Source: a virus. Taken from it: 29,430 bases of DNA. The DNA lies in IMG/VR virus record IMGVR_UViG_3300032050_000596, positions 1-29,430 of that record; one strand, given 5' to 3'. The notes under the pieces were generated by a model that was not told the origin of the DNA, did no database searches, and was given only the letters and a program-made list of their open reading frames with translations. Positions 2,424 to 29,430 of the stretch are shown here, piece after piece. The first letter of the stretch is position 1. Each line of letters opens with the position of its first letter. The translations under genes and the position numbers were made by a program.

Positions 2424-2600
2424 TTAATTAATTAGTTCTTTATGTTCATTTTCATCTATCAACAATTCGTTTTCATCACAATGTCTTAAATGCACATTTT
2501 TGTTATCAGCCCACTCTTGTAAGCATTGTGTTGTTTGGCTGTGATAAAAAATATCTTGGTTTTTTATCTCTTCAAGGCACATTCTGCAATAGTGTTTCAT
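2424..2600 (-). CDS. 58-residue Cys/His protein, putative small zinc-binding protein
   Basis: Reading leftward from the ATG at 2598-2600 gives 58 codons and a TAA at 2424-2426. The product starts MKHYCRMCLEEIKNQDIF, with Cys5-x2-Cys8, then Cys26 and a His37-x2-His40-Cys41 cluster, which is enough ligands for one zinc site. The C-terminal third is very acidic (ENELLIDENEHKE). The first gene downstream of the leftward promoter at 2627-2654, it would be the leader gene of the left block, and a 58-residue acidic zinc protein expressed first is consistent with a host-takeover or regulatory role. That role is inference; no family was recognised. Confidence 0.6.
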   Translation of the reverse strand: MKHYCRMCLEEIKNQDIFYHSQTTQCLQEWADNKNVHLRHCDENELLIDENEHKELIN

Positions 2601-2626
2601 ATATTAAAAGATTAATTTATATATCT

Positions 2627-2654
2627 ATAACAACACACATTTTTTAATTGTCAA
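2627..2654 (-). promoter_or_regulatory. Leftward sigma70-type promoter
   Basis: On the minus strand TTGACA (2649-2654) is followed after exactly 16 bases by TGTTAT (2627-2632). The spacer and downstream part share the 15-mer TGTGTTGTTATAGAT with the leftward promoter at 22473-22500, so the two belong to one promoter class. It drives the genes at 2424-2600 and onward to the left. Confidence 0.65.
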
Positions 2655-2665
2655 GTAGAAAAATG

Positions 2666-2707
2666 ATAATATTATAACTTTTTTACGATGAATAGTTATA
2701 ATATTAT
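2666..2707. promoter_or_regulatory. Paired palindromic operator candidate between divergent promoters
   Basis: ATAATATTATAAC (2666-2678) and its exact reverse complement GTTATAATATTAT (2695-2707) form a 13-bp inverted repeat with a 16-base gap. Each arm also contains the perfect 10-bp palindrome ATAATATTAT, and the two palindrome centres are 32 bp apart, close to three helical turns, which would put both on one face of the DNA. The element lies between the leftward promoter at 2627-2654 and the rightward one at 2719-2746. I read it as a two-site operator; a simple transcript hairpin is an alternative. Confidence 0.55.
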
Positions 2708-6341: not shown

Positions 6342-6352
6342 ATAAAAAAAAT

Positions 6353-6395
6353 AAATAGATTTTATGCTTGACTTTTACAAAATAGATTTTATGAA
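6353..6395 (+). promoter_or_regulatory. Promoter candidate with a 14-bp direct repeat before the HNH gene
   Basis: TTGACT (6368-6373), 16 bases, then TATGAA (6390-6395) form a moderate promoter about 30 bases before the endonuclease start. The 14-mer AAATAGATTTTATG occurs at 6353-6366 and again at 6380-6393, 27 bases apart, so the region contains a short direct duplication that could also mark an insertion boundary. Confidence 0.4.
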
Positions 6396-6424
6396 TAATA
6401 AATTATTACTAATAAAGTTTTTTT

Positions 6425-8603: not shown

Positions 8604-8620
8604 AATTAAGAAAAATGCTA

Positions 8621-8666
8621 TTTTTTAAGAAACATATATTTTATAAGTTTTATAAGGCTTAAAAAA
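8621..8666. terminator. Imperfect inverted repeat after the methyltransferase, possible terminator
   Basis: TTTTTTAAG (8621-8629) and CTTAAAAAA (8658-8666) are exact complements, and pairing extends outward through TGC/GCA with one bulged base. The hairpin is AT-rich with a 28-base loop, so it is a weak terminator candidate at best. The rest of the 8604-8790 gap holds A-rich sequence with a lone TTGACA at 8724-8729 that lacks a well-placed -10. Confidence 0.35.
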
Positions 8667-8790
8667 TGCAACATAAGAAATCATAAAAAGATGATAACAG
8701 AAAATAACAGATAATAAGAAAAGTTGACAATTATATTTAACAATATTAAGAAATATGATTGTTATAAGAAAAACATAAATATATTGTATA

Positions 8791-9699
8791 GTGGCAAAAT
8801 ATTCTACCGAAATTATAATGGCTTTGCAAGAACATACAACTGGTGATTTTATTAAATATTTCCCACATCATATTGCAGAGATTAAAATCCTCCGTCCAGA
8901 TTTAAAAGAATATATGGGCAATGTAGATGATAAGTTATATTGTTATATTAAAAACCAACAATATCAAATTAATAGAAAATTAAACAACAATGAAATAGTT
9001 AAAAAAGCTGTTCAAAATAATAAAGAAAAATTAAATGCAATAAAAGAAAAGGCTATACAATCCAATACTGAGAACGAATATATTGAAAATATGATAAATG
9101 ATATATTTGTTAAATTAGAAACACAGCAAAATAATCAACCTCCACAATCACCAAAAAATAATCAACCTCCACAATCACCAAACAATAATGAATTAGCAGA
9201 TGATGATAATATAACATTTAATACTGCAAATAATTTAATGAATCGGATTGGTGATAACACCAAAGATATAGGAGATATAAAAAAACAAATACAAGATACA
9301 AAAGATACATTTAATAACAATATATTGAATAAACTGGCAGAATGCAATAACGAATTAACAGTCCCAAACAATAAGCTACACATTGACCAAATTAAATATC
9401 TTCAAGAGCAAATAAAAGTATTGAGTTCGTTATATAGATTAAATCACAATATAACAATTACAGACAAGATAACTGCAATAAGTGATTTATGCAAAGCCAC
9501 TAAGTTAAGTGTTGAAAGTTTTGCTATTTTATGCGAAGCTTCTGATAAACAAAGCGAAAGACAGTCTGAGAAAGAAAGAATTAATCAAAATAATAATATT
9601 GAAAAACAAATAGAAGGCTATGGACTTGATGAACAAATTGACATATTGCAACAGAATTTAACAAAAGAATTAGATGCAATTTCATATGAACCAAAATAA
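8791..9699 (+). CDS. Probable terminase small subunit or packaging accessory protein
   Basis: This 302-residue protein starts with GTG at 8791 (MAKYSTEIIMALQEHTTGDFIKYFPHHIAEIKILRPDL); the next in-frame ATG at 8818 is an alternative. The N-terminal 90 residues are helical and could include a DNA-binding unit. A Gln/Pro/Asn-rich linker with a doubled NNQPPQSP unit lies at about 113-132, followed by coiled-coil helices to the C-terminus. It overlaps the start of the large terminase by 14-26 bases, the usual place of the small subunit. I assign it by position and build, not by a family motif. Confidence 0.55.
   Translation: MAKYSTEIIMALQEHTTGDFIKYFPHHIAEIKILRPDLKEYMGNVDDKLYCYIKNQQYQINRKLNNNEIVKKAVQNNKEKLNAIKEKAIQSNTENEYIENMINDIFVKLETQQNNQPPQSPKNNQPPQSPNNNELADDDNITFNTANNLMNRIGDNTKDIGDIKKQIQDTKDTFNNNILNKLAECNNELTVPNNKLHIDQIKYLQEQIKVLSSLYRLNHNITITDKITAISDLCKATKLSVESFAILCEASDKQSERQSEKERINQNNNIEKQIEGYGLDEQIDILQQNLTKELDAISYEPK
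9131..9184 (+). repeat. 27-bp tandem repeat (two copies) encoding a Pro/Gln linker
   Basis: Two units at 9131-9157 and 9158-9184 each begin ATAATCAACCTCCACAATCA and differ at one base near the end. They encode NNQPPQSPK and NNQPPQSPN. Near identity suggests recent duplication and possible length variation between relatives. Confidence 0.9.
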
Positions 9700-11224
9700 A
9701 GATTTGCTTCAAAAAAAGATATTAATGCTAAAAAGTCAATTAATAGCTGTAAATAAAATAAAAGAATTAAAAATACAAAATGCACGGACAGATTTTAAAT
9801 CATTTATTGAGTTGATGTTTGGCGAAACAACTGCCAGCTGTAATTTTCAAAAATCATTCCATACTGATGTTTTAATAGCAATATGTCAATTAAAAGCAGA
9901 TAGAAAATTACTATATAAAAATGTTATTATAACAATTCCACCCGGGCATACTAAAACCCTTATTTGCAATGTTTTATATACGGCTTGGGTATTTGGCAGG
10001 TTTCCACAGACAAGATTTATATGTGGCGGTAATAACCAAGATGAGGTAAATAAAAGAAATATGGAGATTAGGGAGCTTATGCAAACAAATATTTATAAAA
10101 AAATCTTTCCAAATGTAAAATTGATAAACGAAGAAAAGACTTGGTTGACAACAAATTTTAGAGGCGGTCGCCGTGCCGTTACAACAAATATTGCAATGAG
10201 GTTTACTGGTGGAGATGCCGATGAGCTAATCATAGACGACCCGAACGATACAACTACAAGCCAGCATGAATTAGAAAAAACAAATGATTGGTTTCAAAAA
10301 AAAGCCAGCCGAAGACTTAGGGTTGGCAAAAGAAATAATGGTTTTTTACTTATACAGCAAAGAGTTGCTCAGGACGATTTAACTGGTTTTATACTAAGGT
10401 CAAGCAGAAAAGATTATTTTCATTTAACATTAAAAGCCGAAGACAAAGATGGGTTTAATATTGAGATACCGCTTATTGATGGTAATAAAGTTGTGTTGCA
10501 AAAAGAGGCTGGTTATTTGTGGGATATGTTTGCAAAAAGTGGAGATTATGATACTATTAAAAATAATGATGAACAAAACCTTGTTTGGCAGATTCAATAT
10601 TTAGGTAATGTTGATTGTATAGTTGGCAATCAATTTAAGCGAGAATGGTTGCAAGAAGTAGATAACAATAAAATACAATCCGTTTTAACAAGACCAAACA
10701 TTTTAACTATAATGTCAATAGATGCCGCCATAAGCGAAAAAACAACTGCCGATTACACTGCAATATTATTTTTTGCTTACGATATTGCCGACGGAACATT
10801 ATTTTTAATAGATGTTTGTAGAAAAAAAATAGCTTATACAGAATTAGAAAAATTAACTGCTGATTTATGTGTCAAATGGAATCCAAGATTAGTTTTGGTA
10901 GAAAACAAGGCAAACGGAAGTCCACTATTAGATAGAATTAATAGAGGACAGTTAATAAATAACAATACAGGCGAGCCGTTAAGATTAGTTGCGAAAGGTA
11001 TAACGCCAATAAAAAGCAAGATTGAACGAGCACATAATTCTGGTGTTTTGTTGGATGCCAAACGATTTTTCTTGCCAAAGTCTGCCCCGTGGCGAGTTGA
11101 TTTTGACAGTGAGCTATTACAGTTCCCAAATGGTAAAAACGACGATCAAGTTGATAGTTTTACACAGTGCATCAGGTATATTGAAAGCCTGCGAATGTCT
11201 AATGCTAGGGTAAGTATGGTTTAG
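9674..11224 (+). CDS. terL: Phage terminase large subunit
   Basis: The motor ATPase and nuclease that pumps phage DNA into procapsids and cuts the concatemer. The length (516 residues) is normal. The ATPase half shows a P-loop variant PPGHTKT (89-95), Walker B LIIDDP (185-190) and the coupling motif IQQR (227-230). The nuclease half shows the RNase H-fold acidic residues: Asp350 in SIDAA, Glu410 in VENKANG and Asp494 in NDDQVDS. The start may be ATG 9674 or ATG 9686; both overlap the preceding gene, which suggests translational coupling. It is followed by a promoter candidate at 11227-11255, and the portal lies 5 kb downstream with DNA-modification and regulatory genes in between, an unusual separation. 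Confidence 0.95.
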   Translation: MQFHMNQNKDLLQKKILMLKSQLIAVNKIKELKIQNARTDFKSFIELMFGETTASCNFQKSFHTDVLIAICQLKADRKLLYKNVIITIPPGHTKTLICNVLYTAWVFGRFPQTRFICGGNNQDEVNKRNMEIRELMQTNIYKKIFPNVKLINEEKTWLTTNFRGGRRAVTTNIAMRFTGGDADELIIDDPNDTTTSQHELEKTNDWFQKKASRRLRVGKRNNGFLLIQQRVAQDDLTGFILRSSRKDYFHLTLKAEDKDGFNIEIPLIDGNKVVLQKEAGYLWDMFAKSGDYDTIKNNDEQNLVWQIQYLGNVDCIVGNQFKREWLQEVDNNKIQSVLTRPNILTIMSIDAAISEKTTADYTAILFFAYDIADGTLFLIDVCRKKIAYTELEKLTADLCVKWNPRLVLVENKANGSPLLDRINRGQLINNNTGEPLRLVAKGITPIKSKIERAHNSGVLLDAKRFFLPKSAPWRVDFDSELLQFPNGKNDDQVDSFTQCIRYIESLRMSNARVSMV

Positions 11225-11226
11225 TG

Positions 11227-11255
11227 TTGACTATTAAAATAGTATGTTTTATGTT
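11227..11255 (+). promoter_or_regulatory. Rightward promoter candidate
   Basis: TTGACT (11227-11232) and TATGTT (11250-11255) are separated by 17 bases, and the -35 continues as ATTAAAAT, matching the TTGACWATTAAAA class seen at 2719 and 14428. It begins just after the terminase stop and precedes the gene at 11284. Confidence 0.55.
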
Positions 11256-11283
11256 TGATTGTAATTAACAAATAAAAAATATT

Positions 11284-11625
11284 ATGGTTAAACCTTGTAA
11301 AAACAGTATTGACGATTATAATGCTTGTAGTGTATCTTTTAACGAATTATCGCCTTTTATTTATTTTATAAATTTTCTGTTTGATTGTGATATTTATAAA
11401 AATGATATTACATTTTCTAATGATAATTTAGAATACAAACAAATAATTGATAATCTGTTGCCAATTAAAGAAAAATTATTAAATGATAGTCAATATCTAA
11501 AATACAAACAATATGTTATTGATAGAAAAACAATTACAGCCGAGATGTATAACAGTTTTATTAACATATTACAAGAGCCAAACGAAAATAATGTTATCAA
11601 CTTTTTAAACCAAATTAATAAATAA
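11284..11625 (+). CDS. Hypothetical protein
   Basis: The 113-residue product opens with MVKPCKNSIDDYNACSVSFNEL and is otherwise helical and acidic, with repeated Asn/Asp/Lys content and a C-terminal helix (MYNSFINILQEPNENNVINFLNQI). It is the first gene behind the promoter candidate at 11227 and is 4 bases from the antirepressor-like gene. Small acidic proteins next to BRO-type genes can be regulators, but I see no motif that shows it. Confidence 0.55.
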   Translation: MVKPCKNSIDDYNACSVSFNELSPFIYFINFLFDCDIYKNDITFSNDNLEYKQIIDNLLPIKEKLLNDSQYLKYKQYVIDRKTITAEMYNSFINILQEPNENNVINFLNQINK

Positions 11626-11629
11626 AACA

Positions 11630-12424
11630 ATGCAAAACAACTTAAAAATTTTTGAATTTAACAACAAAAAAATACGAATTGAAAATATAAACAACGAGGC
11701 TTATTTCTGTTCAATTGATATTTGTAATATTTTAGAATATAAAAACCATACAAAAGCAATACAAGATAATTGCGACCAAGATGGATTAACTGCGGGCTAT
11801 ATCATAGATACAATTGGTAGACAACAAAAGACAACATTTCTTAACGAAGCAAATCTATACAGATTGATAATGAAGTCAACTATGCCAAAAGCAAAAGCAT
11901 TTCAAGACTGGGTTTGTAAAGATGTATTGCCACAAATTCGCAAGACTGGTTCATACAATGCAATTCAACAACCACAACTGCCAACAACATATATTGAAGC
12001 CTTAAAAGCCCTTGTTGTTGCCGAAGAGTTATTAGAAAAACAAGCCCCACAGATTGAAAAATATAATCAATTGCATAATATTGAAGGCAATTTTAGTTTG
12101 CAAGATGCAATGAAAATGTTGCATTTAAAACCAAACAAAGCTATTGATAGATTATGCAAATTAAAATATATATACAATAACAACGGTAAATACAATTCAT
12201 ATCAAAAATATATCGATAATGGTTTATTTACAACAAAAACAATATTGAATGATAATATTGCATATGGCATATATATCACTGCCAAAGGCTTAGCATATTT
12301 TAGAGAGATTTTGCATAAATTTCACGATTGTAGTGTTGATGAATATAAATACAATCCATATTTAACTGCCAAACAGAATGAAAATAGTAGATTAGCTTTT
12401 GAAAAATTAAATAATAATTTATAA
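11630..12424 (+). CDS. BRO-N domain phage antirepressor-like protein with ANT-type C-terminus
   Basis: The 264-residue protein has an N-terminal BRO/Bro-N domain at about 1-105: IFEFNNKKIRIENINNEAYFCSIDICNILEYKN, then TTFLNEANLYRLIMKSTMPKAKAFQDWVCKDVLPQIRKTGSY, the hallmark stretch of the family. A coiled segment (YIEALKALVVAEELLEKQAPQIEKYNQL) leads to a C-terminal ANT/KilA-C-like domain at about 140-264 with a winged-helix look (FSLQDAMKMLHLKPNKAIDRLCKLKYIY). Such proteins bind DNA or repressors and derepress phage genes. It lies between the 11284 gene and a ParB-like gene. No cognate repressor is recognisable in the window. Confidence 0.88.
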   Translation: MQNNLKIFEFNNKKIRIENINNEAYFCSIDICNILEYKNHTKAIQDNCDQDGLTAGYIIDTIGRQQKTTFLNEANLYRLIMKSTMPKAKAFQDWVCKDVLPQIRKTGSYNAIQQPQLPTTYIEALKALVVAEELLEKQAPQIEKYNQLHNIEGNFSLQDAMKMLHLKPNKAIDRLCKLKYIYNNNGKYNSYQKYIDNGLFTTKTILNDNIAYGIYITAKGLAYFREILHKFHDCSVDEYKYNPYLTAKQNENSRLAFEKLNNNL

Positions 12425-12428
12425 ATAT

Positions 12429-13106
12429 ATGTCAATAAACTTCCCAGCACAATTAACAGAGTTTATCAATATAGATGAGCTTGTATTAGACAAACATAAT
12501 GCAAAAATACATACTGAGCCTGATTTAGAAAAATTAGCACGGATTATTGAAACCGAGGGTTTTAACGAACCTATAACAATTGGCACGGTAAAAAATGCTG
12601 ACCCAGTTGTTATTTGTGGGAATGGTAGAGTTGAAGCTATGAAAATGCTAGGTGCTACACAAATTCCATTTGTTAAAAAAGACTTCCGCACGGATGCCAG
12701 CAGGATTGCCTACGGATTGAAAAATAATGCAATACAACAAGAGACTGGGTTTAATGCTTTGCAATATCAAAAAAATGTTGAATTGATTGCAGTAGATGAA
12801 GTTGAGTTGGCAGAATTTGAAACTTACGAATTTAAAGCATTGGAGGTTGGCAAGATTGAAAAACTAAACAATGTTTTGAATGATGTTGAATTGATTGATA
12901 ATAGTGGGGAACAAACAGAATTAAAAAATACAAACGAAGAGATTAATATTGATAATATTGACACCAGTGAATGCAAAATTATTTTTAAATTTGATGCTTT
13001 AATGTATGAAAGTGTCAATAGCAGAATGAATAAAATAAAAGCAGACAACAATTTTTCAACAAACGAAGTTTTATTACTTGAATTATTAGAAAATTATGGA
13101 TCATAA
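12429..13106 (+). CDS. ParB/Srx N-terminal domain protein
   Basis: The 225-residue protein carries the ParB-like nuclease/CTPase fold at about 10-115: the opening INIDELVLDKHNAKIHTEPDLEKLARIIETEGFNEPITI, then VVICGNGRVEAMKMLGATQIPFV with the conserved G-N-G-R (64-67, the GxxR core). The rest is acidic and Asn-rich with a C-terminal helix pair and has no HTH of the chromosome-partition type. Stand-alone ParB-domain proteins are common next to phage methyltransferases and terminases. Its last 11 bases overlap the C5 methyltransferase start, so the two are made together and may act together. It lacks a ParA partner, so plasmid-type partition is unlikely. Confidence 0.85.
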   Translation: MSINFPAQLTEFINIDELVLDKHNAKIHTEPDLEKLARIIETEGFNEPITIGTVKNADPVVICGNGRVEAMKMLGATQIPFVKKDFRTDASRIAYGLKNNAIQQETGFNALQYQKNVELIAVDEVELAEFETYEFKALEVGKIEKLNNVLNDVELIDNSGEQTELKNTNEEINIDNIDTSECKIIFKFDALMYESVNSRMNKIKADNNFSTNEVLLLELLENYGS

Positions 13107-14142
13107 ATTTCCCTACAATTGGCATTTAAAAGATAGTTATCCTGCAAAAAATATTGAAAAACATAATTTAAAAGTATTTGGCACTTTTATTTGCGGAGGT
13201 GGCTCAACAATGGGCTATAAATTGGCAGGATTTAATCATTTAGGTGGTGTTGAGATAGATAAACAAATTGCACCAATTTATAAATTAAATCATAACCCAA
13301 AATATCTTTACAACGAAGACATAAGAGATTTTAGAATAAGAAATGATTTACCGCAAGAACTTTTTGAATTAGATATTTTAGACGGAAGCCCGCCGTGTAG
13401 TGTATTTTCTATGGCAGGTAAAAGAGAAGAAGGCTGGGGTGTTGAAAAAACATTTAAAGAAGGGCAAGCAAAACAATCATTAGATGATTTATTTTTTGAA
13501 TATATTGCATTAGCTAAAAGATTGCAACCAAAAATAGTAATTGCAGAAAATGTAAAAGGAATGTTGGTTGGCAATGCAAAAATCTATTGTAAAAAAATAA
13601 AAGATGCTTTTATAGATGCTGGCTATGAAGTGCAATTATTTTTATTAAATGCTGCGACAATGGGGGTTCCGCAAAGGAGGGAGAGGGTGTTTTTTATTGC
13701 AAAAAGAAAAGATTTGCAGTTGCCAGAGTTAAAGTTGAGTTTTAATGAAAAACCTATTTTATTTAAAGAAATTTTTGATAATAAAATTATAACAGGTAAA
13801 TTAGAGCCAAAACAATTATTGTTATGGAATAAAAAAATTCCTAGTGATAAATCTTTGGCTGATATTTGTATGCGAGTAGAAAATAAAAACAATTATTTTA
13901 GCCATTGCCTTATTAAGCAATCAGGAATATTGCCAACCTTAACAGCACATAGTAGTGTTCAACATGTTTTATATGATTACCCTAGATATTTAACTAATAG
14001 AGAATTTTTATTAGCTGGCTCATATCCGTTAGATTATAATTTTGGCAATTTAAATGCAGGATATTTAATTGGTATGTCAGTTCCGCCTGTGATGATAGCG
14101 CAAATATCACATCAAATATATTTACAATATTTTAAAAAATAG
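13096..14142 (+). CDS. DNA cytosine-C5 methyltransferase
   Basis: The enzyme methylates cytosine at C5 in a short DNA target using SAM. The 348-residue protein shows motif I as FICGGGSTMGYKLAGF (31-46), the catalytic motif IV GSPPCSVFS with Cys101, motif VI ENV (151-153) and motif VIII VPQRRERVFFIA (191-202). A short target-recognition region follows at about 215-290, and the C-terminal NREFLLAGSYP plus GNLNAGYLIGMSVPP matches motifs IX-X. No cognate restriction enzyme is present, so this is an orphan phage methyltransferase, likely antirestriction. It overlaps the ParB-like gene. Confidence 0.93.
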   Translation: MDHKFPYNWHLKDSYPAKNIEKHNLKVFGTFICGGGSTMGYKLAGFNHLGGVEIDKQIAPIYKLNHNPKYLYNEDIRDFRIRNDLPQELFELDILDGSPPCSVFSMAGKREEGWGVEKTFKEGQAKQSLDDLFFEYIALAKRLQPKIVIAENVKGMLVGNAKIYCKKIKDAFIDAGYEVQLFLLNAATMGVPQRRERVFFIAKRKDLQLPELKLSFNEKPILFKEIFDNKIITGKLEPKQLLLWNKKIPSDKSLADICMRVENKNNYFSHCLIKQSGILPTLTAHSSVQHVLYDYPRYLTNREFLLAGSYPLDYNFGNLNAGYLIGMSVPPVMIAQISHQIYLQYFKK

Positions 14143-14145
14143 TAT

Positions 14146-14370
14146 ATGAATATCTACGAGCTTTTATCATTATTTGCTTCCATAATCTGTTTTATTGCCA
14201 ACTACTTATTGCATTCAGCAAAAATCAATACAAAACAGTATGCTATGCTAACATTATGCACTTCGGTTTTGTTTTTGATATCAGCATTTGGCTTTTTTAA
14301 CAAAGGTGCTATTGTTAGTGAAGTTATGTGGCTTGGATTGTCAATATATGGAATTGTTAAAAAATCATAA
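14146..14370 (+). CDS. Small inner-membrane protein
   Basis: The 74-residue product has three hydrophobic stretches at about 5-22, 31-49 and 55-70, with polar turns (HSAKINTKQY and NKGAI) between them, suggesting a three-span membrane protein. It starts 3 bases after the methyltransferase stop and closes this operon. The pattern resembles small YgjV-like membrane proteins, but similarity is only general. A role in exclusion or lysis is possible, not shown. Confidence 0.6.
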   Translation: MNIYELLSLFASIICFIANYLLHSAKINTKQYAMLTLCTSVLFLISAFGFFNKGAIVSEVMWLGLSIYGIVKKS

Positions 14371-14382
14371 TTTTAACTACAA

Positions 14383-14420
14383 TTAAACCCCCACCGATAA
14401 AAAGATTAACTACAATTAAA
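14383..14420 (+). repeat. 15-bp direct repeat upstream of the clamp promoter
   Basis: TTAACTACAATTAAA occurs exactly at 14383-14397 and 14406-14420, 23 bases apart. Its core ACAATTAAA recurs a third time in the promoter -35 region at 14431-14439. This looks like an array of binding sites for a regulator that acts on the 14428 promoter. The stretch CCCCCACCG between copies is the most GC-rich run nearby. Confidence 0.6.
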
Positions 14421-14427
14421 ATAGTTG

Positions 14428-14455
14428 TTGACAATTAAAATTTGGTTGTTATATT
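14428..14455 (+). promoter_or_regulatory. Rightward promoter (copy 2) for the clamp gene
   Basis: TTGACA (14428-14433), 16 bases, TATATT (14450-14455). The -35 region AGTTGTTGACAATTAAAAT is identical to that at 2716-2734, as are spacing and -10, so both transcription units probably fire together. Confidence 0.8.
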
Positions 14456-14498
14456 TAATATAAGCAATTCATTTTGCATTAATTTAATCTTTTTTACT

Positions 14499-15116
14499 AT
14501 GAAGCTAATTATAGAACATGCTGTCTTATTTGACACCGTTAAATCTACTTCTTATGCTATGTCAAAACAAGGAGAACGAAGCAATTTGCAATCTATGTTT
14601 TTTGATTTTAATAATCGAGAGGCAAAAATTATTGCAACAGATGGCAATAGATTAGTTTTGAACACAATCACTAACACTGATTATTATAATTTAGAAAATA
14701 ATAACGATGTAAAGTTTTTGTTGAACAGAATTGATGTTAATCATTTGATTGCTTTCTTGAAAAATAACTTGCAAAAAAAAATGGTTTTGCAAGTTGTTAA
14801 TATAGAAATTGCAGGTATAACAATTACTTTTGAATTGAATGGCAACAAAGCTATTTATAATTTGATGGATGCAGACACATTTCCTAATTACACAAGAGTA
14901 ATTCCTTTGCATAAATATGATACTTTACCAAACAATGTTTTATTGAATGCAAATTATCTTGCAAATTGTAGCAAAATATTTGAAAAATGCAACTCGGTTG
15001 AGTTTTTACTAAATACACCATCAGGGGCATTATCAATGGCACCAGTTTCTATTAAATCATCACATATATTATTTAATATAGATGTTGTATATGTAATTAT
15101 GCCTATGAGTAAATAA
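14499..15116 (+). CDS. Shortened DnaN-like sliding clamp
   Basis: I take ATG 14499 (205 residues); the earlier in-frame start at 14442 lies in the promoter. The sequence follows bacterial beta clamp domains II and III: IIATDGNRLVL near 47-57 (compare ATDGHRLA in E. coli DnaN), LMDADTFPNYTRVIP near 120-134 (compare GRFPDYRRVLP), and the C-terminus YVIMPMSK (compare YVVMPMRL). Domain I is absent and domain III is cut from about 120 to about 75 residues. DnaN proteins are about 366 residues and hold polymerase on DNA. The short form could be a phage clamp with a different subunit number, or a decoy that competes for host clamp loader or clamp partners. It has its own strong promoter and terminator, so it is a single-gene unit. 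Confidence 0.8.
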   Translation: MKLIIEHAVLFDTVKSTSYAMSKQGERSNLQSMFFDFNNREAKIIATDGNRLVLNTITNTDYYNLENNNDVKFLLNRIDVNHLIAFLKNNLQKKMVLQVVNIEIAGITITFELNGNKAIYNLMDADTFPNYTRVIPLHKYDTLPNNVLLNANYLANCSKIFEKCNSVEFLLNTPSGALSMAPVSIKSSHILFNIDVVYVIMPMSK

Positions 15117-15119
15117 GAC

Positions 15120-15153
15120 AATGTCCTAGGATTATTTTTAATTCTAGGACATT
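15120..15153 (+). terminator. Strong intrinsic terminator after the clamp gene
   Basis: AATGTCCTAG-G-ATTA (15120-15134), loop TTTT, and TAAT-T-CTAGGACATT (15139-15153) pair over 15 positions with one G-T wobble, then a T-rich tail follows. It begins 3 bases after the stop codon. This is the only long near-perfect terminator hairpin I see in the window. Confidence 0.88.
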
Positions 15154-15174
15154 TTAATTTAATTTGCAATAATT

Positions 15175-15423
15175 ATGAACGAACAAGATAAAAAAACATA
15201 CCGTATATTACTAAAATTAAGTTTAGTCTGGGGCAACATAACAAGGGGGACATATAATGTTGAGATGTGCAATTTAAAGCATAATAAGAAAATATTACGA
15301 GGCTTGAATAAAACTGCCTTTGATTTTGTTAGATTATGTCAAGATGGCACGACTGGTAAAAGTTTATATGATATAACGGAAGTTATGCAAAAGATTGATA
15401 ATATTAAAAATAATTTAAAATAA
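15175..15423 (+). CDS. Hypothetical protein
   Basis: The 82-residue product is Lys-rich with a basic middle (MCNLKHNKKILRGLNKTAFDFVRLCQDG) and starts MNEQDKKTYRILLKLSLVWGNITRG. It is first of a tight three-gene run; each stop is followed by AATTATG or TTATG as the next start. No motif seen. Confidence 0.55.
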   Translation: MNEQDKKTYRILLKLSLVWGNITRGTYNVEMCNLKHNKKILRGLNKTAFDFVRLCQDGTTGKSLYDITEVMQKIDNIKNNLK

Positions 15424-15425
15424 TT

Positions 15426-15779
15426 ATGATAACAGAAACATTAATGCAAGAAAGAACAATAGCAATAAATGAATATTGTTTTTTGTTAAAATATTATTAT
15501 GATGGATGTAGTTTTAAAGTAAAAGTTTGGCAAGAGCAAACAGAAAACATAGATATAAATAAACCATATATTACATTTCATTTGCGATTTACAGGTGATT
15601 GTGTTCATAATATGATTAATCTTTTAGATCATTTTTGCGATAAAAAAGAAATGTTGACATTATTTAAATTATATGAATATATCGCAAACAGTGTTCCGTG
15701 GGACGATTTCTTGAGTGATGATGAGCTAATACAATATTGCAAAAAAGAATACAACTTTGATATAAACAATTTAAAATAA
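15426..15779 (+). CDS. Hypothetical protein
   Basis: The 117-residue protein is mixed alpha/beta with strands ITFHLRFTGDCV and a helical, acidic C-terminus (DDFLSDDELIQYCKKEYNFDINNLK). The start lies 2 bases after the previous stop, indicating translational coupling. I do not recognise a family and see no metal or catalytic motif. Confidence 0.55.
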   Translation: MITETLMQERTIAINEYCFLLKYYYDGCSFKVKVWQEQTENIDINKPYITFHLRFTGDCVHNMINLLDHFCDKKEMLTLFKLYEYIANSVPWDDFLSDDELIQYCKKEYNFDINNLK

Positions 15780-15781
15780 TT

Positions 15782-16195
15782 ATGATAAAATTTATAAACA
15801 AAATAAAGATTGCTTTTCTTGAAAAACAAGAACTGCTAAGCGAAATAAAAAAATTAAGGCAACTTGCTAAGCATTTACATAATATGCTAACAGATAAGCA
15901 AATTTTAGATTTACATCTATGTATAGACGAAGAAAGTTATTTATCAAATTTTGATAGTATGCACAAAATTGATACAACTGGCACTGTATTTACTCATATA
16001 AAAGATAATGAAAATCGTCGTTCATTTGGCACTGTTTTTTTGTATGTGGTGCTTGAAAATGTTAATCGAGAATGCGGAGAAAAATATTGTGTTAAAATAG
16101 GTGATTTATCTTATAGCTTTTCTTGTTATTTTTATACAGAAACAAAAGCAAACGAATATATGAAAAGAGTTAAAAAATTGTGTAATATAATTTAA
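15782..16195 (+). CDS. Hypothetical protein with N-terminal coiled coil
   Basis: The 137-residue product begins with a basic amphipathic helix (MIKFINKIKIAFLEKQELLSEIKKLRQLAKHLHNML), probably a coiled coil, followed by a beta-rich part (TGTVFTHIKDNENRRSFGTVFLYVVL ... KIGDLSYSFSCYFYTETKAN). It ends the three-gene run; the late promoter candidate before the portal begins 8 bases later. Function unknown. Confidence 0.55.
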   Translation: MIKFINKIKIAFLEKQELLSEIKKLRQLAKHLHNMLTDKQILDLHLCIDEESYLSNFDSMHKIDTTGTVFTHIKDNENRRSFGTVFLYVVLENVNRECGEKYCVKIGDLSYSFSCYFYTETKANEYMKRVKKLCNII

Positions 16196-16202
16196 AATCA
16201 TA

Positions 16203-16231
16203 ATTGATTATTATAAAATAACATTTATCTA
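16203..16231 (+). promoter_or_regulatory. Late-type promoter motif before the portal
   Basis: ATTGATTATTATAAAAT carries TTGATT (16204-16209), with TATCTA (16226-16231) after 16 bases. ATTGATTATTAT is shared with motifs at 19455 and 22571. It is the first of five related copies in the head-tail region. Confidence 0.55.
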
Positions 16232-16244
16232 TTATATAGATAAA
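16224..16244. promoter_or_regulatory. Perfect 9-bp palindrome overlapping the late promoter
   Basis: TTTATCTAT (16224-16232) and ATAGATAAA (16236-16244) are exact reverse complements around TAT. It covers the -10 region and ends 10 bases before the portal ATG, so it may be an operator or a 5' hairpin that affects portal translation. Confidence 0.5.
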
Positions 16245-16254
16245 CTTAAAATGA

Positions 16255-17670
16255 ATGTTTGGCATAGCAAATTTTATTAAAAAAAGTTGGGGCGGAACAC
16301 CTGATTCACCTCAACAAACAAGAAGCTATACAAACCTATTTAATAATCTTTTTGGTATAAAACATACTGATAATTTTCTAATAAATCAAAAGATTTTAGT
16401 AAAAGAAACAAGATATAATATAGCAAAAAACCATGCAATAGTCTCAAAAGCATTTGATATTATTTTAAATCATACATCAAATGTAGACATTGTTTTAAAA
16501 CAAAGGGTTGGCAACGAAATAAATGTTATAACAAAGCATCCAGTCGTTGATTTACTAAACAATCCAAACGGTTTATATGATAAAACAGAAATAGATTTTA
16601 TCAAAAAGCTATTGTTTGAATATATGGTAAATGGAGAATATTATATATTATATGATGAAGTTTCGGAAATTTTAGAAGTTATAGAATCAACAAATATTGC
16701 ACCAAAAGATTTTAAAAACAATAATTCATTTGTAACAGAATATGTTATTACAAATTATGCAACAAGAAATTATGATACAAGAAATACAAATACAGATACA
16801 ACACAACTTAATTTTAAATATAATCCCGTAGAGCAATATTATGAATCTTGTATGCAATATGATAAATTATATAAAAAAGATGGTATAACACCATTGCCGT
16901 GCTATAAATTATTTGTTTTTCAAGATATACAAAATAGATATTTAGATAATCAATATAGAAAATCTAAAATCTCGCAAAATATTCATAATATTACTACTTA
17001 TGAAAATGTGCAAAATGCTTTGTTTTATATTTCATCAAAAGCAATAAATAATAGTGTTTTGACAGTCAATCATAAAAATGGAAATAATGGCGACATTATA
17101 TTGAATGAAAAAGCTATTAATGATTCTAAAGTAGAATTGTCAAGGATAATAAATTCAACATCAAATTCTGGAAGTATTACAACTATGGAAAATGTAAATG
17201 CCGATTTTAATATTTCACCATTGAATAAATTAGAATACGATCAATTTGAAATGTTGTTAAATGATATTGAAAAAAAATTAATGTTAGGTCTTGGCATACC
17301 GTTAAAAATGATTGAAGCTTCAAAAGATAGTAATACATCTGGTGATATGTTAAATATAACTAATATGCAGTTGTATAAAGAACAGATTTTACCAATGTTA
17401 AATAAAATTTTACAACATCTAGGTGGCTTTTTATTTAATGTATTTGATGTTGAAGATAAGGGTTATTTTTTAGATGTTGATTTAAGTTCGATACAAGAAT
17501 ATAAACAAGCGGAAGCTGATGTTAGCATAAATTTATTTAAAAATAATGTAATTACAAGAAACGAAGCTAGGGCAAAAATTGGATTACCGCCACTTGACAA
17601 CGACAGCGGGGAGGCTTTCTTTAATGCAAATTCATTGCAACAACAAAACTCGCAAGATAATCTATTATAG
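16255..17670 (+). CDS. Phage portal protein (HK97-type)
   Basis: The portal forms the dodecameric ring at the capsid vertex through which DNA enters. The 471-residue protein has the usual opening (MFGIANFIKKSWGG), a body with strand-rich wing, the GIPLKMIEASKDSNTSGDMLNITNMQLYKEQILPMLNKIL segment that marks the stem and crown entry in the HK97 family, and a C-terminal tail VITRNEARAKIGLPPLDND (from 432). The ATG at 16255 is preferred to 16251, which stops after 9 codons. The C-terminal 38 codons are copied in the leftward gene at 18840-19448. Confidence 0.93.
   Translation: MFGIANFIKKSWGGTPDSPQQTRSYTNLFNNLFGIKHTDNFLINQKILVKETRYNIAKNHAIVSKAFDIILNHTSNVDIVLKQRVGNEINVITKHPVVDLLNNPNGLYDKTEIDFIKKLLFEYMVNGEYYILYDEVSEILEVIESTNIAPKDFKNNNSFVTEYVITNYATRNYDTRNTNTDTTQLNFKYNPVEQYYESCMQYDKLYKKDGITPLPCYKLFVFQDIQNRYLDNQYRKSKISQNIHNITTYENVQNALFYISSKAINNSVLTVNHKNGNNGDIILNEKAINDSKVELSRIINSTSNSGSITTMENVNADFNISPLNKLEYDQFEMLLNDIEKKLMLGLGIPLKMIEASKDSNTSGDMLNITNMQLYKEQILPMLNKILQHLGGFLFNVFDVEDKGYFLDVDLSSIQEYKQAEADVSINLFKNNVITRNEARAKIGLPPLDNDSGEAFFNANSLQQQNSQDNLL
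17552..17646 (+). repeat. Inverted repeat arm 1: portal C-terminal tail coding DNA
   Basis: Positions 17552-17596 match the reverse complement of 18959-19003 at 43 of 45 bases, and 17623-17646 match the reverse complement of 18903-18926 at all 24 bases. Sequence between these blocks has diverged. The arms enclose the minor head gene. Confidence 0.9.
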
Positions 17671-17674
17671 ATAA

Positions 17675-18655
17675 ATGAATCAGCAAGAGGCAAATAAAAT
17701 AGCATTGTCAATCTATAACAAAAAACAACCAATTATAAAATATATCAAAAAAGAGTTTGCTAAATTATATAATGGAGTTGGCAACGATATGTCAAAACTT
17801 ATTGCAAACAATACATTTATTGCCAAACAAGATATTATAAACAATTACAAGCCTGATATAACCTCAATTATTAGAATGGCTTATAGGATGACGGCTGAAA
17901 AATTTGATAACAATATTCGTAGCCAACTCAACACAGATAATACAGTTCAAAAAGCAAAAATTGATTTTGAAAATTCTGTTAATGCAAAAATTGACCACGA
18001 TATTACATTGTTTATAAACAACAAATCAGAAAAACAAGCTAATTATATTGCAGATACACTGGCAACAAAAATATTATTTCATAAAGACAATTCTTATAGT
18101 GATTTTGACGAGCATATTGACAATCTAAACAACACAATTACTAATTTGACACAAAACAGACTATTAACAAATAATAATGCTAAAATACAAGATTTATCAA
18201 AACAGATAACAACTGCGCAGCAAGAAATAGAAAAATACAAAAATGCAAAACAAAATTACATAGCAAAGTTTTTTCAAAGAAAATTTGTTGAAAATGTTGT
18301 CAACCAAATGTCAAATTTAGATGCTGAGCAGGAGGTAAATTATGCAGAAAGCAGTGTTCGTGATATTGAAGCTAATCAATTGTCAAAAAGCAACGAAGTT
18401 ATTAGTAGCGGTATTTATGCAGGTTATAAAGTATCACAGATATTATATAAACAATGGAATTCTGCATTAGATAATAAAACACGGACAGGGCATGCAATGG
18501 CTTATGGGCAGACCGTGTTGGCAACAGAATTGTTTCAAGTTGAAAACCCACAGGGCAGTATTGAGTTTGGTATGATGCCCCGAGCGGACACATTTTCTGT
18601 TGGCAACAAAATTAATTGTCGTTGTATTGCTATTTATTTTTTGAAAAAAGATTAA
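17675..18655 (+). CDS. Minor head protein (SPP1 gp7/MuF family)
   Basis: The 326-residue protein is mostly helical (1-240), with coiled coil around 165-205 (NNNAKIQDLSKQITTAQQEIEKY). The C-terminal third holds the MuF signature: QWNSALDNKTRTGHAMAYGQTV (about 265-286), then the Gly/Met-rich FGMMPRADTFSVGNKINCRCIAIYF ending in CRC. These proteins sit with the portal in the procapsid and may be ejected with DNA. It starts 4 bases after the portal stop. Its last 26 bases overlap the end of the leftward gene at 18630-18821. Confidence 0.88.
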   Translation: MNQQEANKIALSIYNKKQPIIKYIKKEFAKLYNGVGNDMSKLIANNTFIAKQDIINNYKPDITSIIRMAYRMTAEKFDNNIRSQLNTDNTVQKAKIDFENSVNAKIDHDITLFINNKSEKQANYIADTLATKILFHKDNSYSDFDEHIDNLNNTITNLTQNRLLTNNNAKIQDLSKQITTAQQEIEKYKNAKQNYIAKFFQRKFVENVVNQMSNLDAEQEVNYAESSVRDIEANQLSKSNEVISSGIYAGYKVSQILYKQWNSALDNKTRTGHAMAYGQTVLATELFQVENPQGSIEFGMMPRADTFSVGNKINCRCIAIYFLKKD

Positions 18656-18839: not shown

Positions 18840-19448
18840 TTATTTTTTATATAATAATTCTTTAAAAGATGAATATCCTTCAATATCCGACATATAATTA
18901 TCTTGTTGTTGCAATGAATTTGCATTATTTAATAATTCAGCTAAAAAATCCTCTCCGCCAAGTGGTGGTAATCCAATTTTTGCCCTAACTTCGTTTCTTG
19001 TAAGTTTATTTGCTATAATATTTCTATAATTTAAAAATTTATCTGTTAATTCTTTTTTTTCTTTTGTGTTGGTAAAAAAATTTTCTAATTGTTTTTTTAT
19101 GATATTTTCTTCTTTTTTATTTTTAGCTTGTATAATTTGCATTTGTATATCGTATAATTTTTGTATTTCTAATATATTATACATATCGTAAAAAGCATTT
19201 TCAACTTGTTTTGCTAAACCTATTTTTTCACTTGTATCGTGTGGGCTTTTTGAAATTTGCGTTATTAATTCATGAACAAATATAATTTGTATATCTTTTT
19301 CAAAAATCTCACCTTTTTTGTATGGAGCTATTTGTAAAGATTGTATTGCAGTCTCAGTAAAAAACTTCTCTACCGCCTGTTCAATACTTATAATTTCATC
19401 ATTTGTATTTACTAAATCTTTTTCTATTAATGTCATTTTTAATTCCAT
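18840..19448 (-). CDS. Helical protein fused to a copy of the portal C-terminal tail
   Basis: I take ATG 19448 (MELKMTLIEKDL, 202 residues); a longer frame from 19577 would cross the divergent promoter and overlap the rightward gene at 19511. Residues 1-147 are acidic, Lys/Glu/Gln-rich helix with no recognised domain (EENIIKKQLENFFTNTKEKKEL). Residues 150-182 (TRNEVRAKIGLPPL, then NNANSLQQQD) copy the portal tail (TRNEARAKIGLPPL, then FNANSLQQQN), also at DNA level. The gene lies where capsid protease and major capsid genes are usual, runs opposite to the head genes and has its own promoter. The tail could target it to the portal or into the capsid; interference with assembly is another option. 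All roles are inference. Confidence 0.75.
   Translation of the reverse strand: MELKMTLIEKDLVNTNDEIISIEQAVEKFFTETAIQSLQIAPYKKGEIFEKDIQIIFVHELITQISKSPHDTSEKIGLAKQVENAFYDMYNILEIQKLYDIQMQIIQAKNKKEENIIKKQLENFFTNTKEKKELTDKFLNYRNIIANKLTRNEVRAKIGLPPLGGEDFLAELLNNANSLQQQDNYMSDIEGYSSFKELLYKK
18903..19003 (-). repeat. Inverted repeat arm 2 in the leftward cassette gene
   Basis: This is the reverse-oriented partner of 17552-17646: an exact 24-base block (18903-18926) and a 45-base block with two mismatches (18959-19003). The two mismatches read Ala/Val and a silent Pro codon change. Confidence 0.9.
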
Positions 19449-19450
19449 AT

Positions 19451-19503
19451 CAAAATTGATTATTATAATAATATATATATTATTAATATAAATAATAGTC
19501 AAT
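19451..19503. promoter_or_regulatory. Overlapping divergent promoters (copy 1)
   Basis: Rightward: CAAAATTGATTATTAT with TTGATT (19456-19461), 16 bases, TATTAT (19478-19483), serving the gene at 19511. Leftward: TTGACT (19497-19502, minus strand), 17 bases, TATATA (19474-19479), serving the portal-tail gene at 19448. The two -10 elements overlap, so use of one should exclude the other. A copy lies at 21081-21135. Confidence 0.6.
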
Positions 19504-19510
19504 ATAAAAT

Positions 19511-20176
19511 ATGCAAATAGAAAATAACTTTGGCAACTATAAAATCTTGACACGGGACACAACATCTTTATTGACATTAAATGAAGTCAAGATTGCATTA
19601 GGTTACGGGACTTTTGCTAATAGCATTACTGACCCACAATTACAAGCATTGATTGACTTTGTTCCTCATTTATGCGAAGAGATATTGAATAGCTATATTT
19701 TTCCAACAACAGGAACTATATCATTTTGCAATTTTACAAATTTAAGATATTATTCTGGTGACCCACTGCATCATAAAACATTAATTACTTTATACAAAGG
19801 CAACATAACTCAAATACCTGCAATCAATTATTTAAAAAACAATGTATTGACTTTGGTTGACAATGCAAATTATTATAATGATATTCAAACTTGCAAAACA
19901 ACCATTTTAGCAAAAAACGACGGCTTCCCAGTTGATTATGATTTATTAGATACATCTTATAGAAGCAGTCAACCAGATGTTGTTAAAATTAGCTTTGTTG
20001 GTGGTTACGATAATACAAATCCGTTGCCAGCATATTTAAAAAGAGCTATGCTAGATGCAATATTGTTTTTATTTACAAACAGCCCAAATTGTGGTTGCGA
20101 AGGTAATTGTGTATTACCTCAATTAGCAATTCAACAGTTGATGGGTATGAGGTGTCCAGTTTTACCTATTTTATAA
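19511..20176 (+). CDS. Head-tail connector/adaptor (gp6-like)
   Basis: The 221-residue protein starts just behind the divergent promoter. It has the form of gp6/gp15-type adaptors that dock under the portal: a helical opening that binds (LTLNEVKIALGYGTFANSITDPQLQALIDFVPHLCEEILNSYIFP), a beta middle (VKISFVGGYDNTNPLPAYLKRAMLDAILFLF) and a C-terminal tail. FVGGYDxxxPLPAYLKRAML is typical of this family. A Cys-rich patch NCGCEGNC near 195 is odd and could bind metal. It begins the head-completion module that runs to 21074. Confidence 0.72.
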   Translation: MQIENNFGNYKILTRDTTSLLTLNEVKIALGYGTFANSITDPQLQALIDFVPHLCEEILNSYIFPTTGTISFCNFTNLRYYSGDPLHHKTLITLYKGNITQIPAINYLKNNVLTLVDNANYYNDIQTCKTTILAKNDGFPVDYDLLDTSYRSSQPDVVKISFVGGYDNTNPLPAYLKRAMLDAILFLFTNSPNCGCEGNCVLPQLAIQQLMGMRCPVLPIL

Positions 20177-20615: not shown

Positions 20616-21074
20616 ATGAAAATAAAAATAACAGTTTCGCAAAACCAAGAAAAATTAGAAAGATTTTTAGATGTTGTGCCAAACTTTCTTAATGCAGAAA
20701 TATCAAAAGCATTATGGGTCGGCGGTAAAAATACAGTCAAAACAGTTATTGAACAATCTCGTGAGCAAAAAAGTGGTGTTGCTGGAATTGTTTATAAAAA
20801 TGGCAGGCGATATAAAGTAGTTCGTTCCGCCCCCAACGAAACATCGGCTCAACAAACTGGTAAAAAAAACAAGGCAACTAAATTTAATGTTAATCAAAAT
20901 ACATTACAGATTGGAATTACAAACGATGTTAAGTATGCAAGTTTTGTTGAACTGGGAACTAAAAATATGAAGGCAAGGGGAGATTTACAGGTTGGCTTAA
21001 ATAAAAATAAAGATTTAATCGTAGACGATGTTAAGGTGAGGGTAAAAAGTATATTTGATAATATGTTTAAATAA
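20616..21074 (+). CDS. HK97-gp10-like head-tail joining/tail completion protein
   Basis: The 152-residue protein has the family's layout: an N-terminal basic helix (NFLNAEISKALWVGGKNTVKTVIEQSREQKSG), a beta hairpin (YKVVRSAPNET) and the signature YASFVELGTKNMKARGDLQVGL near 108-129 (consensus YaxyvExGTxxmxaRPfL). It helps join head to tail in tailed phages. It lies 2 bases after the previous gene and ends the module just before the repeated promoter element at 21081. Confidence 0.8.
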   Translation: MKIKITVSQNQEKLERFLDVVPNFLNAEISKALWVGGKNTVKTVIEQSREQKSGVAGIVYKNGRRYKVVRSAPNETSAQQTGKKNKATKFNVNQNTLQIGITNDVKYASFVELGTKNMKARGDLQVGLNKNKDLIVDDVKVRVKSIFDNMFK

Positions 21075-21080
21075 TATCAA

Positions 21081-21135
21081 CAAAATTGATAATTACATTA
21101 TATATTATGATATTTATATAGAAATAATAGTCAAT
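21081..21135. repeat. Second copy of the divergent promoter element, between convergent gene ends
   Basis: CAAAATTGATAATTA (21081-21095) and AATAATAGTCAATA match the ends of 19451-19503, with 55 versus 53 bases overall. Rightward TTGATA/TGATAT (21086-21113) and leftward TTGACT/TATCAT (21107-21134) can be drawn, both with 16-base spacing. Here no gene starts on either side, so the element seems displaced by the cassette at 21146-22445, or yields antisense RNA. Confidence 0.55.
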
Positions 21136-21145
21136 AGAAAATTCA

Positions 21146-21403
21146 TTATTTATTCTCTTTTGTTATGTCTGTTAATAATCTAATTTGATTTATTTTTTCT
21201 ATAAAATAATCTATATCAGCATTTTTAATGGCAACAAAACACTCAAAACCATATAATGCTGCCCCTTTTTTATATTTACATTGCGACCTTGCAACTTTAT
21301 AAGATAATTCTGTTATTTTTTTTTCTTTATAAAGCTGTTCCGTAAATAAAGCTATATTTTTTTTGACATCTGTTTTAATTTTTTTTATGTATTTTTTTGG
21401 CAT
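21146..21403 (-). CDS. Small basic hypothetical protein of the leftward cassette
   Basis: I take ATG 21403 (MPKKYIKKIKTDVKKN, 85 residues), 10 bases after the stop of the helical-repeat gene; a longer frame from 21478 overlaps that gene. The protein is basic at the start and helical, with a short hydrophobic strand (YGFECFVAIKNADIDYFIEKI). It shares the promoter at 22473-22500 and may be a partner of the protein at 21414-22445. No family recognised. Confidence 0.55.
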   Translation of the reverse strand: MPKKYIKKIKTDVKKNIALFTEQLYKEKKITELSYKVARSQCKYKKGAALYGFECFVAIKNADIDYFIEKINQIRLLTDITKENK

Positions 21404-21413
21404 ATATTTATAA

Positions 21414-22445
21414 TTATTTAAGTTCAGCAAATTTATCTTTTTTAATATAATTGATTGCCATAATTGGGAATGCTTCATTTAAACGCCCCACCTTATCTTT
21501 CGGGCATTCCTCCATTAATTTATTAAAATCTTCTTGACTAAACTTATATTTTTCTGCAAGATAGGGCAAAGCTTTTAAAAATTCTTGATAGGTTTCTATA
21601 TAACATCCGTTAAAATTATTAAAATTTTTATCAACCAATTTTTTCATTATACTATCAATACAGGCTTTGTCAACTTGACAATTTGGGAACATATTATGAA
21701 ATGTTGTAATATGGCTACAACTGTCAGCATTACAGCATTTTGTTAATAATATATCAAAATATCTTTGAGGGAATTTTAGTGCATTAGCTGGTAACATTTG
21801 AGCCAGTTTTTCAGAATAATAAAAACGGTCGCTATATGAATATGTATCAGTTTTATCAAAAAAATCCATTATTAAATCATTAAAAATTTCTTGTTCAATC
21901 GTAAAATTAATTGCAAGATGCGGTAAAGATGTTGCCAGTGCAAAACATTGATTATTTTTAAGTTCCTCTTTTTCAAGGCTTCGAAGCTCATAGAAATATT
22001 CCATGTCATACCTGTGAAAATGTGCCCTTTTCATAAGACCTTTTTTATATTTTACCTCATTTTTTATCCTAAAATAGTTAGACAATCCCCTATCCATTTT
22101 TTTATCATAATCTATCTGTGTTATTTTTGGTGTAAGATGTAAAAATGCTTTACATATAATTTCTAAATGGTGTATTGACTTGTATGATGTAAAATATTGT
22201 TCTATTTTTTCATCAAAATAGTCTTGCGACAAATTACAATTAGCTACCAAATCGGGAAATGTTTTTGCTAACTCCTTTATTATTTCGGTAAAATCTTTAC
22301 TGAGACATATATCAATCATTATATTAATGTTGGACTGGTCTATTAAAAACTCCTTAATATCAATATCAATATCCTCAATTAATCTAATAGCTTTTATTTG
22401 CTTTACAATATTTAGATTTTTTAAATCTATTAAATTTTTATTCAT
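21414..22445 (-). CDS. Alpha-helical repeat (solenoid-like) protein of the leftward cassette
   Basis: The 343-residue protein has a recurring helix-turn-helix unit of about 35-70 residues with the pattern xxFP-xLA-xxY/F-x-fsQexFnxlM. Clear copies: 59-81 (LAKTFPDLVANCNLSQDYFDEKI), 168-192 (ALATSLPHLAINFTIEQEIF), 213-234 (KLAQMLPANALKFPQRYFDIL), 247-267, 289-311 (FLKALPYLAEKYKFSQEDFNKLM) and 323-341. This suggests an alpha-solenoid for protein binding. There is no signal or catalytic motif. It has its own promoter, is opposite to the tail genes and interrupts the head-tail module, the marks of a moron. I know of no matching family. Confidence 0.7.
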   Translation of the reverse strand: MNKNLIDLKNLNIVKQIKAIRLIEDIDIDIKEFLIDQSNINIMIDICLSKDFTEIIKELAKTFPDLVANCNLSQDYFDEKIEQYFTSYKSIHHLEIICKAFLHLTPKITQIDYDKKMDRGLSNYFRIKNEVKYKKGLMKRAHFHRYDMEYFYELRSLEKEELKNNQCFALATSLPHLAINFTIEQEIFNDLIMDFFDKTDTYSYSDRFYYSEKLAQMLPANALKFPQRYFDILLTKCCNADSCSHITTFHNMFPNCQVDKACIDSIMKKLVDKNFNNFNGCYIETYQEFLKALPYLAEKYKFSQEDFNKLMEECPKDKVGRLNEAFPIMAINYIKKDKFAELK

Positions 22446-22472
22446 ATATTTATAAATTAACTAACTACATCT

Positions 22473-22500
22473 ATAACAACACATCTTTTTTAATAGTCAA
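22473..22500 (-). promoter_or_regulatory. Leftward promoter of the helical-repeat cassette
   Basis: Minus strand TTGACT (22495-22500), 16 bases, TGTTAT (22473-22478). It shares TGTGTTGTTATAGAT and the spacing with the leftward promoter at 2627-2654, linking this cassette to the early-left genes. Confidence 0.65.
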
Positions 22501-22567
22501 GAAAAAAAATTATGTTTTATTAATTTTTTTACCCTTTATAAAATAAGCATTTATAATTCATTCTATC

Positions 22568-22601
22568 AAAATTGATTATTATTTATAATAAAAAACATAA
22601 T
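22568..22601 (+). promoter_or_regulatory. Late-type promoter motif restarting rightward transcription
   Basis: CAAAATTGATTATTAT is identical over 16 bases to that at 19451-19466. TTGATT (22572-22577) is followed after 18 bases by CATAAT (22596-22601), 26 bases before the gene at 22628. Confidence 0.5.
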
Positions 22602-22627
22602 AAAATTATAAAATAATAACTAATATT

Positions 22628-28601: not shown

Positions 28602-29430
28602 TTATGTTTTTTCTGTAAACGGAAATGAATTTGGTAAAATATACAATTTGGTTCGCAAGCCGTTTTTAACATTATATGATAAACTATAACCTGCCAATAT
28701 CCATTTATCTTTTGCACGATACATTGCCTGATTTGAAAATGTTGGATTTTTTTCTAAAATATCACTATTGATTGCAATCGGTGCTGCGAATTGCCATTTT
28801 ATCAATTTACTTAAATCATTATTTCTATTGCAAAAATAACCTTTGACTGTATATGTCAAAATCATATGTTGAGCCATTAATTGCCTTATAAGATATTCTG
28901 CATAATCTTTTGTTGCAACTCCGTCCCTATTTTCTCGCATTTCAAAAGAAAATCTTAATGCTAATAATTGATTTTTACTTATTTCGTAACCAATTTTAGA
29001 TATTTTTTCTGTTAATTTTACCGTAGTCACCTGCCCCAGTTCTCCATAATTTTCATTATTACTTTCTTGGTGTATATCAATTGTATTATAAATTTTCATA
29101 AAATCAACTTGAAAATCTGTATCTAAAATAATAGGATATTGATTAGCTGTATCATAATTATCGTTTATTGTTTGTATTTGAGTATTACTAAACCCTGCCC
29201 TGTTATAATCTTGTCTTGCATAACCAATTGCGACTTGCGAAGTATCTAAACAATATAAATATTCTTTACCATCATATATATTTGTTGTTAAAATTACTTG
29301 GGCTTCATTGCATAAGCTTTCTAAATAGTTGGCTACTGTTTGGTTTGGTGAAGTTGCTCTTTGATTTATTTTATCTAATGCAACATCATCTAAACCCTGT
29401 GTAATAATATCAACATTATTATTTATAAAA
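28602..29430 (-). CDS. Putative tail/baseplate-region protein, 5' end outside the window
   Basis: The leftward frame is open from the right edge to TAA at 28602-28604, giving at least 275 residues. An ATG at 29099 is internal: upstream codons continue without a stop (VALDKINQRATSPNQTV ... YPIILDTDFQVDFMKIYNT). The protein is beta-rich with mixed polar content and ends AGYSLSYNVKNGLRTKLYILPNSFPFTEKT. Its place after the tape measure would suit a baseplate or hub protein, but it runs on the opposite strand, so it may instead belong to another leftward block. I do not recognise the family. Confidence 0.7.
   Translation of the reverse strand, partial: FINNNVDIITQGLDDVALDKINQRATSPNQTVANYLESLCNEAQVILTTNIYDGKEYLYCLDTSQVAIGYARQDYNRAGFSNTQIQTINDNYDTANQYPIILDTDFQVDFMKIYNTIDIHQESNNENYGELGQVTTVKLTEKISKIGYEISKNQLLALRFSFEMRENRDGVATKDYAEYLIRQLMAQHMILTYTVKGYFCNRNNDLSKLIKWQFAAPIAINSDILEKNPTFSNQAMYRAKDKWILAGYSLSYNVKNGLRTKLYILPNSFPFTEKT

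Follow-up and report, generated by a model that had tools for sequence, protein, structure and literature searches.

A reverse-strand gene for an orphan helical-repeat protein, with a copy of a putative early promoter, among the late genes of a contractile-tailed phage

A gene encoding an orphan protein of imperfect helical repeats lies in reverse between the neck and tail genes of a tailed phage, behind a near-copy of the promoter region that precedes the leftward early operon of the same genome. The moron-type anatomy of this locus is well supported by the sequence: the gene is on the reverse strand, sits between head and tail functions, carries a promoter copy of apparently early class and is followed by a small gene in the same orientation, much as the initial annotation had proposed. 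We give a probability of about one half to the reading that the two genes are an early-class cassette of moron type whose main product would be a soluble, all-helical binder of a host protein or of a protein of a rival phage. The features that bear on this reading are collected in Table 1; the window denotes the whole stretch of DNA analysed, a virus record of 29,430 bases with 28% GC.

Table 1. Features of the cassette, its borders and the related early promoter region (positions in the window)
Feature	Position	Strand	Evidence
Helical-repeat protein gene	21414..22445	-	ORF, start context, codon usage, repeat tests, physical properties
Repeats: seven candidate helix-pair units covering residues about 51-343	21417..22295	-	Alignment, leave-one-out test
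Predicted promoter of the accessory genes: TTGACT, 19 nt, TATAGA with TG extended -10	22469..22500	-	Exact motif twice in window, 0 in shuffles
Near-copy (about 92 bp, 79% identity) of the sequence preceding the left-early operon, from promoter through leader to start codon	22441..22532	-	blastn, alignment, shuffle control
Left-early promoter region, paralogous copy	2596..2686	-	blastn, motif search, alignment
Small basic gene, 85 aa, pI 9.65	21146..21403	-	Start-context score; no family or viral-contig match
Perfect TTGACA-16-TATAAT inside the helical-repeat gene	21646..21673	-	Sole such match in window
Boundary element C, AT-rich imperfect palindrome, 3' border of the putative insertion	21063..21142	.	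Alignment to 19435-19510; 0/100 shuffles reach score
Boundary element D, ahead of the following late gene, related less strongly to the same element	22548..22626	.	Alignment; 1/100 shuffles reach score

The source is a tailed phage whose tail has a contractile sheath. PHROGs profiles recognise the tail sheath, tape measure and neck proteins, Pfam the portal and a BRO/KilAC antirepressor, and NCBIfam the large terminase subunit; the scan of window proteins recognised neither an integrase nor a CI-like repressor, and no Rfam family was found in the window. A near-identical contig (L003, G001) matches window positions 1-18479 at 99.98% and runs on for about 3.6 kb beyond the window's left end, where it probably encodes a large appendage protein; because it continues there, the virus record is a fragment. 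The best terminase matches, at about 28%, are to Sphingobium and Erythrobacter phages, and an attempt to assign a host by terminase, methylase and dTMP kinase gave nothing firm, with a slight alphaproteobacterial lean.

The string TTGACWATTAAAAAANRTGTGTTGTTATAGAT, a consensus drawn from its two sites, occurs exactly twice in the window, in front of the helical-repeat gene and at 2623-2654 (-), and in none of 100 shuffles. The initial annotation had described a gene opposed to the late genes and reading from its own promoter, nearly the same as the left-early one; the ORF does lie on the minus strand among the head and tail genes, and the shared string is confined to these two sites of the window. 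The promoter claim can be strengthened, because the entire 5' region is common to both sites: the two upstream copies align at a score of 90, where shuffles reach 53 at most. The front end of the cassette, leader and start codon as well as promoter, is a copy of the front end of the leftward early operon. Among viral contigs, a relaxed form of TTGACWATTAAAAAANRTGTGTTGTTATAGAT matched the near-identical contig and no other. The wider promoter class TTGACWATTAAAA has five sites in the window (2654-, 2719+, 11227+, 14428+ and 22500-), none of them directly preceding a late structural gene. The promoter appears to be of early class, where "early" is read from the gene layout, and since its front end is a left-early copy the gene would be expected to share the timing of the early genes rather than that of its late neighbours. 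Opposite strand and promoter copy together make the gene, as far as sequence can tell, a separate transcription unit with a promoter of its own, as is asked of a moron. In the early region itself, the left and right early promoters diverge from a stretch (2609-2760) that is an imperfect inverted repeat of 150 bp (72%), and a 71 bp tandem duplication (80%) lies at 2171-2310, inside the left-operon gene 1955-2416.

PHROGs assigns the neighbours of the helical-repeat gene to neck, sheath and tape measure functions, and the cassette separates the neck (tail-completion) gene from the tail genes. Both of its borders resemble the sequence before the late gene at 19511, with alignment scores of 67 for boundary element C and 57 for element D, which is consistent with insertion at a repeated late-gene leader. 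Searches with the sheath, the gene at 22628 and the portal for relatives with or without the cassette returned the known contig or nothing usable and gave no related phage with an empty site; the near-identical contig stops before the insertion site, and there is no other close relative among those found. Because of this the insertion is read solely from anatomy. Neither GC content nor codon usage sets the helical-repeat gene apart as foreign. No intrinsic terminator was found behind the cassette; the AT-rich element C is present there, and its fold is no better than that of shuffles.

A small basic gene behind the main one had been part of the initial annotation, and its existence stands, while its start does not. 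The gene almost certainly begins at 21403, judged by start context, and not at 21478 as in the ORF list, because the ATG at 21478 scores -16.8 against 4.8 for the one at 21403, which sits 10 bases behind the stop of the helical-repeat gene. Its product, scanned in the longer form, has no family in Pfam, PHROGs, PADLOC or NCBIfam, and no relative among the viral contigs. The perfect TTGACA-16-TATAAT within the helical-repeat gene may drive a separate transcript of the small gene; this is only a lead, because 0.13 such matches are expected by chance in the window, and 12 of 100 shuffles contain one.

The helical-repeat gene itself is real. Its coordinates are exactly those first annotated, an ORF of 343 residues opening with ATG. 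The start context, TTAATTTATAAATAT followed by ATG, scores 8.9 where the gene maximum in the phage's own score distribution is 8.5, codon usage is within the range of the other phage genes, and the plus strand opposite, in the same register, holds many stops. The protein (40.8 kDa, pI 6.3, no Trp) has no strong, membrane-grade hydrophobic segment and is, judged by its composition, soluble. Residues 237-262 (21659-21737) hold a cluster of cysteines and histidines (C237, C238, C243, H245, H250, C256, C262), a possible metal site within one weak repeat unit. Across the window a Shine-Dalgarno sequence is not evident and A/T runs such as TATAAATATATG precede the starts; TAA ends 34 of 40 genes and TGA 1 of 40.

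The protein had been described as unknown, with clear homology to a structural or housekeeping family named as the finding that would speak against that view. Searches of sequence databases and of phage, plasmid and contig collections gave no homologue, and Pfam, PHROGs and NCBIfam no such family. PHROGs and NCBIfam have no match at all, and in Pfam no repeat family appears up to E = 10, the only entry being PRESAN at E = 1.8. PADLOC has no family for either protein of the cassette, which places neither in a known defence system, and no enzymatic family was matched in Pfam, PHROGs, NCBIfam, PADLOC or the PDB sequences. The PDB sequences gave no match to the protein and none to its repeat profile with E below 0.25; two profile matches (E 0.25 and 0.79) were set aside as single weak stretches. 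No relative was found in 50,697 phages or 72,556 plasmids, nor, one chance match aside, in IMG/VR or GTDB contigs, where the contig scans need an exact shared peptide and distant relatives may escape them. The exception, a Saprospiraceae sequence (L002; query residues 51-96, 37%), is ascribed to chance, with E = 0.41 in a whole-genome search. By these searches the protein is an orphan.

Within the protein, an imperfect unit of about 40 residues recurs in seven candidate copies, with FP/LP or equivalent motifs at residues 63, 105, 174, 218, 253, 293 and 326 and a rough consensus, from the aligned units, of L-x3-FP-x-LA-x-N-x4-Q-x2-FDxL. In ungapped self-alignment the sum of the ten best diagonals exceeds all 500 shuffles, and 8 of the 500 reach the score of the best single diagonal. 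Leave-one-out profiles are more discriminating: the copies at 63, 174 and 293 beat 1000 of 1000 shuffles and the copy at 326 beats 995, the copy at 218 passes weakly (965), and the copies at 105 (923) and 253 (782) do not pass. The count of "at least six copies" first given is therefore at the optimistic end, since only four units are clear in this test, while the presence of repeats holds. The unit is absent from every other frame of the window and of the contig extension, as searched with the repeat profile. A single-sequence AlphaFold2 model is all helical, and its helices pair up on the repeat units, at low confidence (mean pLDDT 41.8, pTM 0.23). Of the earlier proposal of a solenoid of helix pairs, the helical repeat is upheld by the sequence; the solenoid fold is suggested, and with a mean pLDDT of 41.8 it is a sequence-based reading. 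HEAT, TPR and mTERF-like alpha-solenoids are likewise built of tandem units of about 35-45 residues, comparable to the predicted helix pairs, whereas Pfam profiles place the protein in none of these or other known alpha-solenoid families, ankyrin-like ones included. We take the FP/LP-xL motif to recall proline-marked repeats. That the repeats are an effect of composition in an AT-rich, helix-rich protein with no regular solenoid is improbable: of the seven copies two or three score weakly and the structure model is poor, but four copies are strong when held out and the summed self-similarity lies above that of every shuffle.

What might such a protein do? The sequence shows the gene, its repeats, the promoter copy, the boundary elements and the absence of relatives in the searches; from these we infer the insertion event, the fold, the timing, the binding role and the target. 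The main product would be a soluble cytoplasmic repeat protein, all-helical and probably a solenoid, that binds a protein partner and is not an enzyme; for a repeat protein such a role is reasonable. Its likeliest use would be to neutralise a host factor or a component of a competing phage, early in infection or, if the phage is temperate, perhaps in a lysogen. Alteration of the host or blocking of other phages, as first proposed, is plausible; the searches gave no homologue, defence model or known partner in its support, and literature on phage solenoids offered no example of their use in phage takeover. A more specific version, a new family of phage helical-repeat binders that capture a particular host-defence or competitor protein and are deployed with a copied early promoter cassette, is a long shot; if true, the array of repeats would lend itself as a scaffold, with units that can change to follow the target.

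Other explanations of the locus must be weighed against an early-class binder cassette. An anti-phage gene expressed from the prophage, acting by superinfection exclusion or by blocking virion assembly in the manner of Tab, with the small gene as partner or self-protection, is an unlikely alternative. Its anatomy would be that of Tab, a minus-strand gene with its own promoter in the late region (PMC10884400), and the second co-oriented small gene, possibly with an internal promoter, is in keeping with it; yet PADLOC gives no match, Tab has 83 residues and no matching protein family is found here, and as to a temperate lifestyle, the scanned proteins of the window include no recognised integrase or CI-like repressor. 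Quite as doubtful is a displaced gene of the early leftward operon, serving host takeover or counter-defence, that moved together with its promoter into the late region, so that the locus would record a rearrangement and not the acquisition of a moron. The upstream homology does run through leader and start codon, and codon usage agrees with that of the phage, but the coding part is unlike the left-operon genes by blastn within the window, and the repeat profile matches no other window protein. That the product is a virion or assembly protein read from the other strand is very improbable: the location between neck and tail genes would suit it, whereas the early-class promoter, the opposite orientation and the lack of a structural PHROG match do not.

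Reverse-strand genes with their own promoters in late operons have elsewhere proved to be accessory or anti-phage genes (PMC10884400; PMC7067206). Tab of Pseudomonas phage JBD26 is a moron with a proven function, that of a tail assembly blocker, and shares with the helical-repeat gene the reverse strand, an own promoter and a place inside the late region (PMC10884400). It differs in length, 83 residues against 343, in its position between terminase genes, and in being constitutively expressed from the prophage (PMC10884400), whereas the promoter here is early-class by layout; the likeness is one of gene anatomy, and the phage collection gave no match to the helical-repeat protein. STMMW_20121 of Salmonella prophage ST64B is likewise antisense to lytic genes with its own promoter, and its expression has been measured (PMC7067206), whereas the helical-repeat gene is known from sequence alone; the two are not known to be related in sequence. 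The present case would add an orphan repeat protein to the reverse-strand cassettes of late operons, which elsewhere were found to be defence or host-modifying genes, and a front end copied from, or of the same source as, that of an early operon illustrates how such cassettes may gain early expression.

The window holds further reverse-strand genes. One in the left-early operon, 1419-1931 (-), encodes an HNH nuclease (HNH_4, E 7.8e-6; weak GmrSD_C) that seems to carry a signal peptide. Another, 28602-29099 (-), lies directly behind the tape measure gene and has no family beyond a weak clamp-loader PHROG (E 0.009). A second reverse-strand gene of the late operon, 18840-19577 (-) with a probable start at 19448, ends in an inverted copy of a C-terminal segment of the portal (73.6% DNA identity to 17552-17646; RNEVRAKIGLPPL versus RNEARAKIGLPPL), possibly a portal-fragment decoy or a recombination scar.
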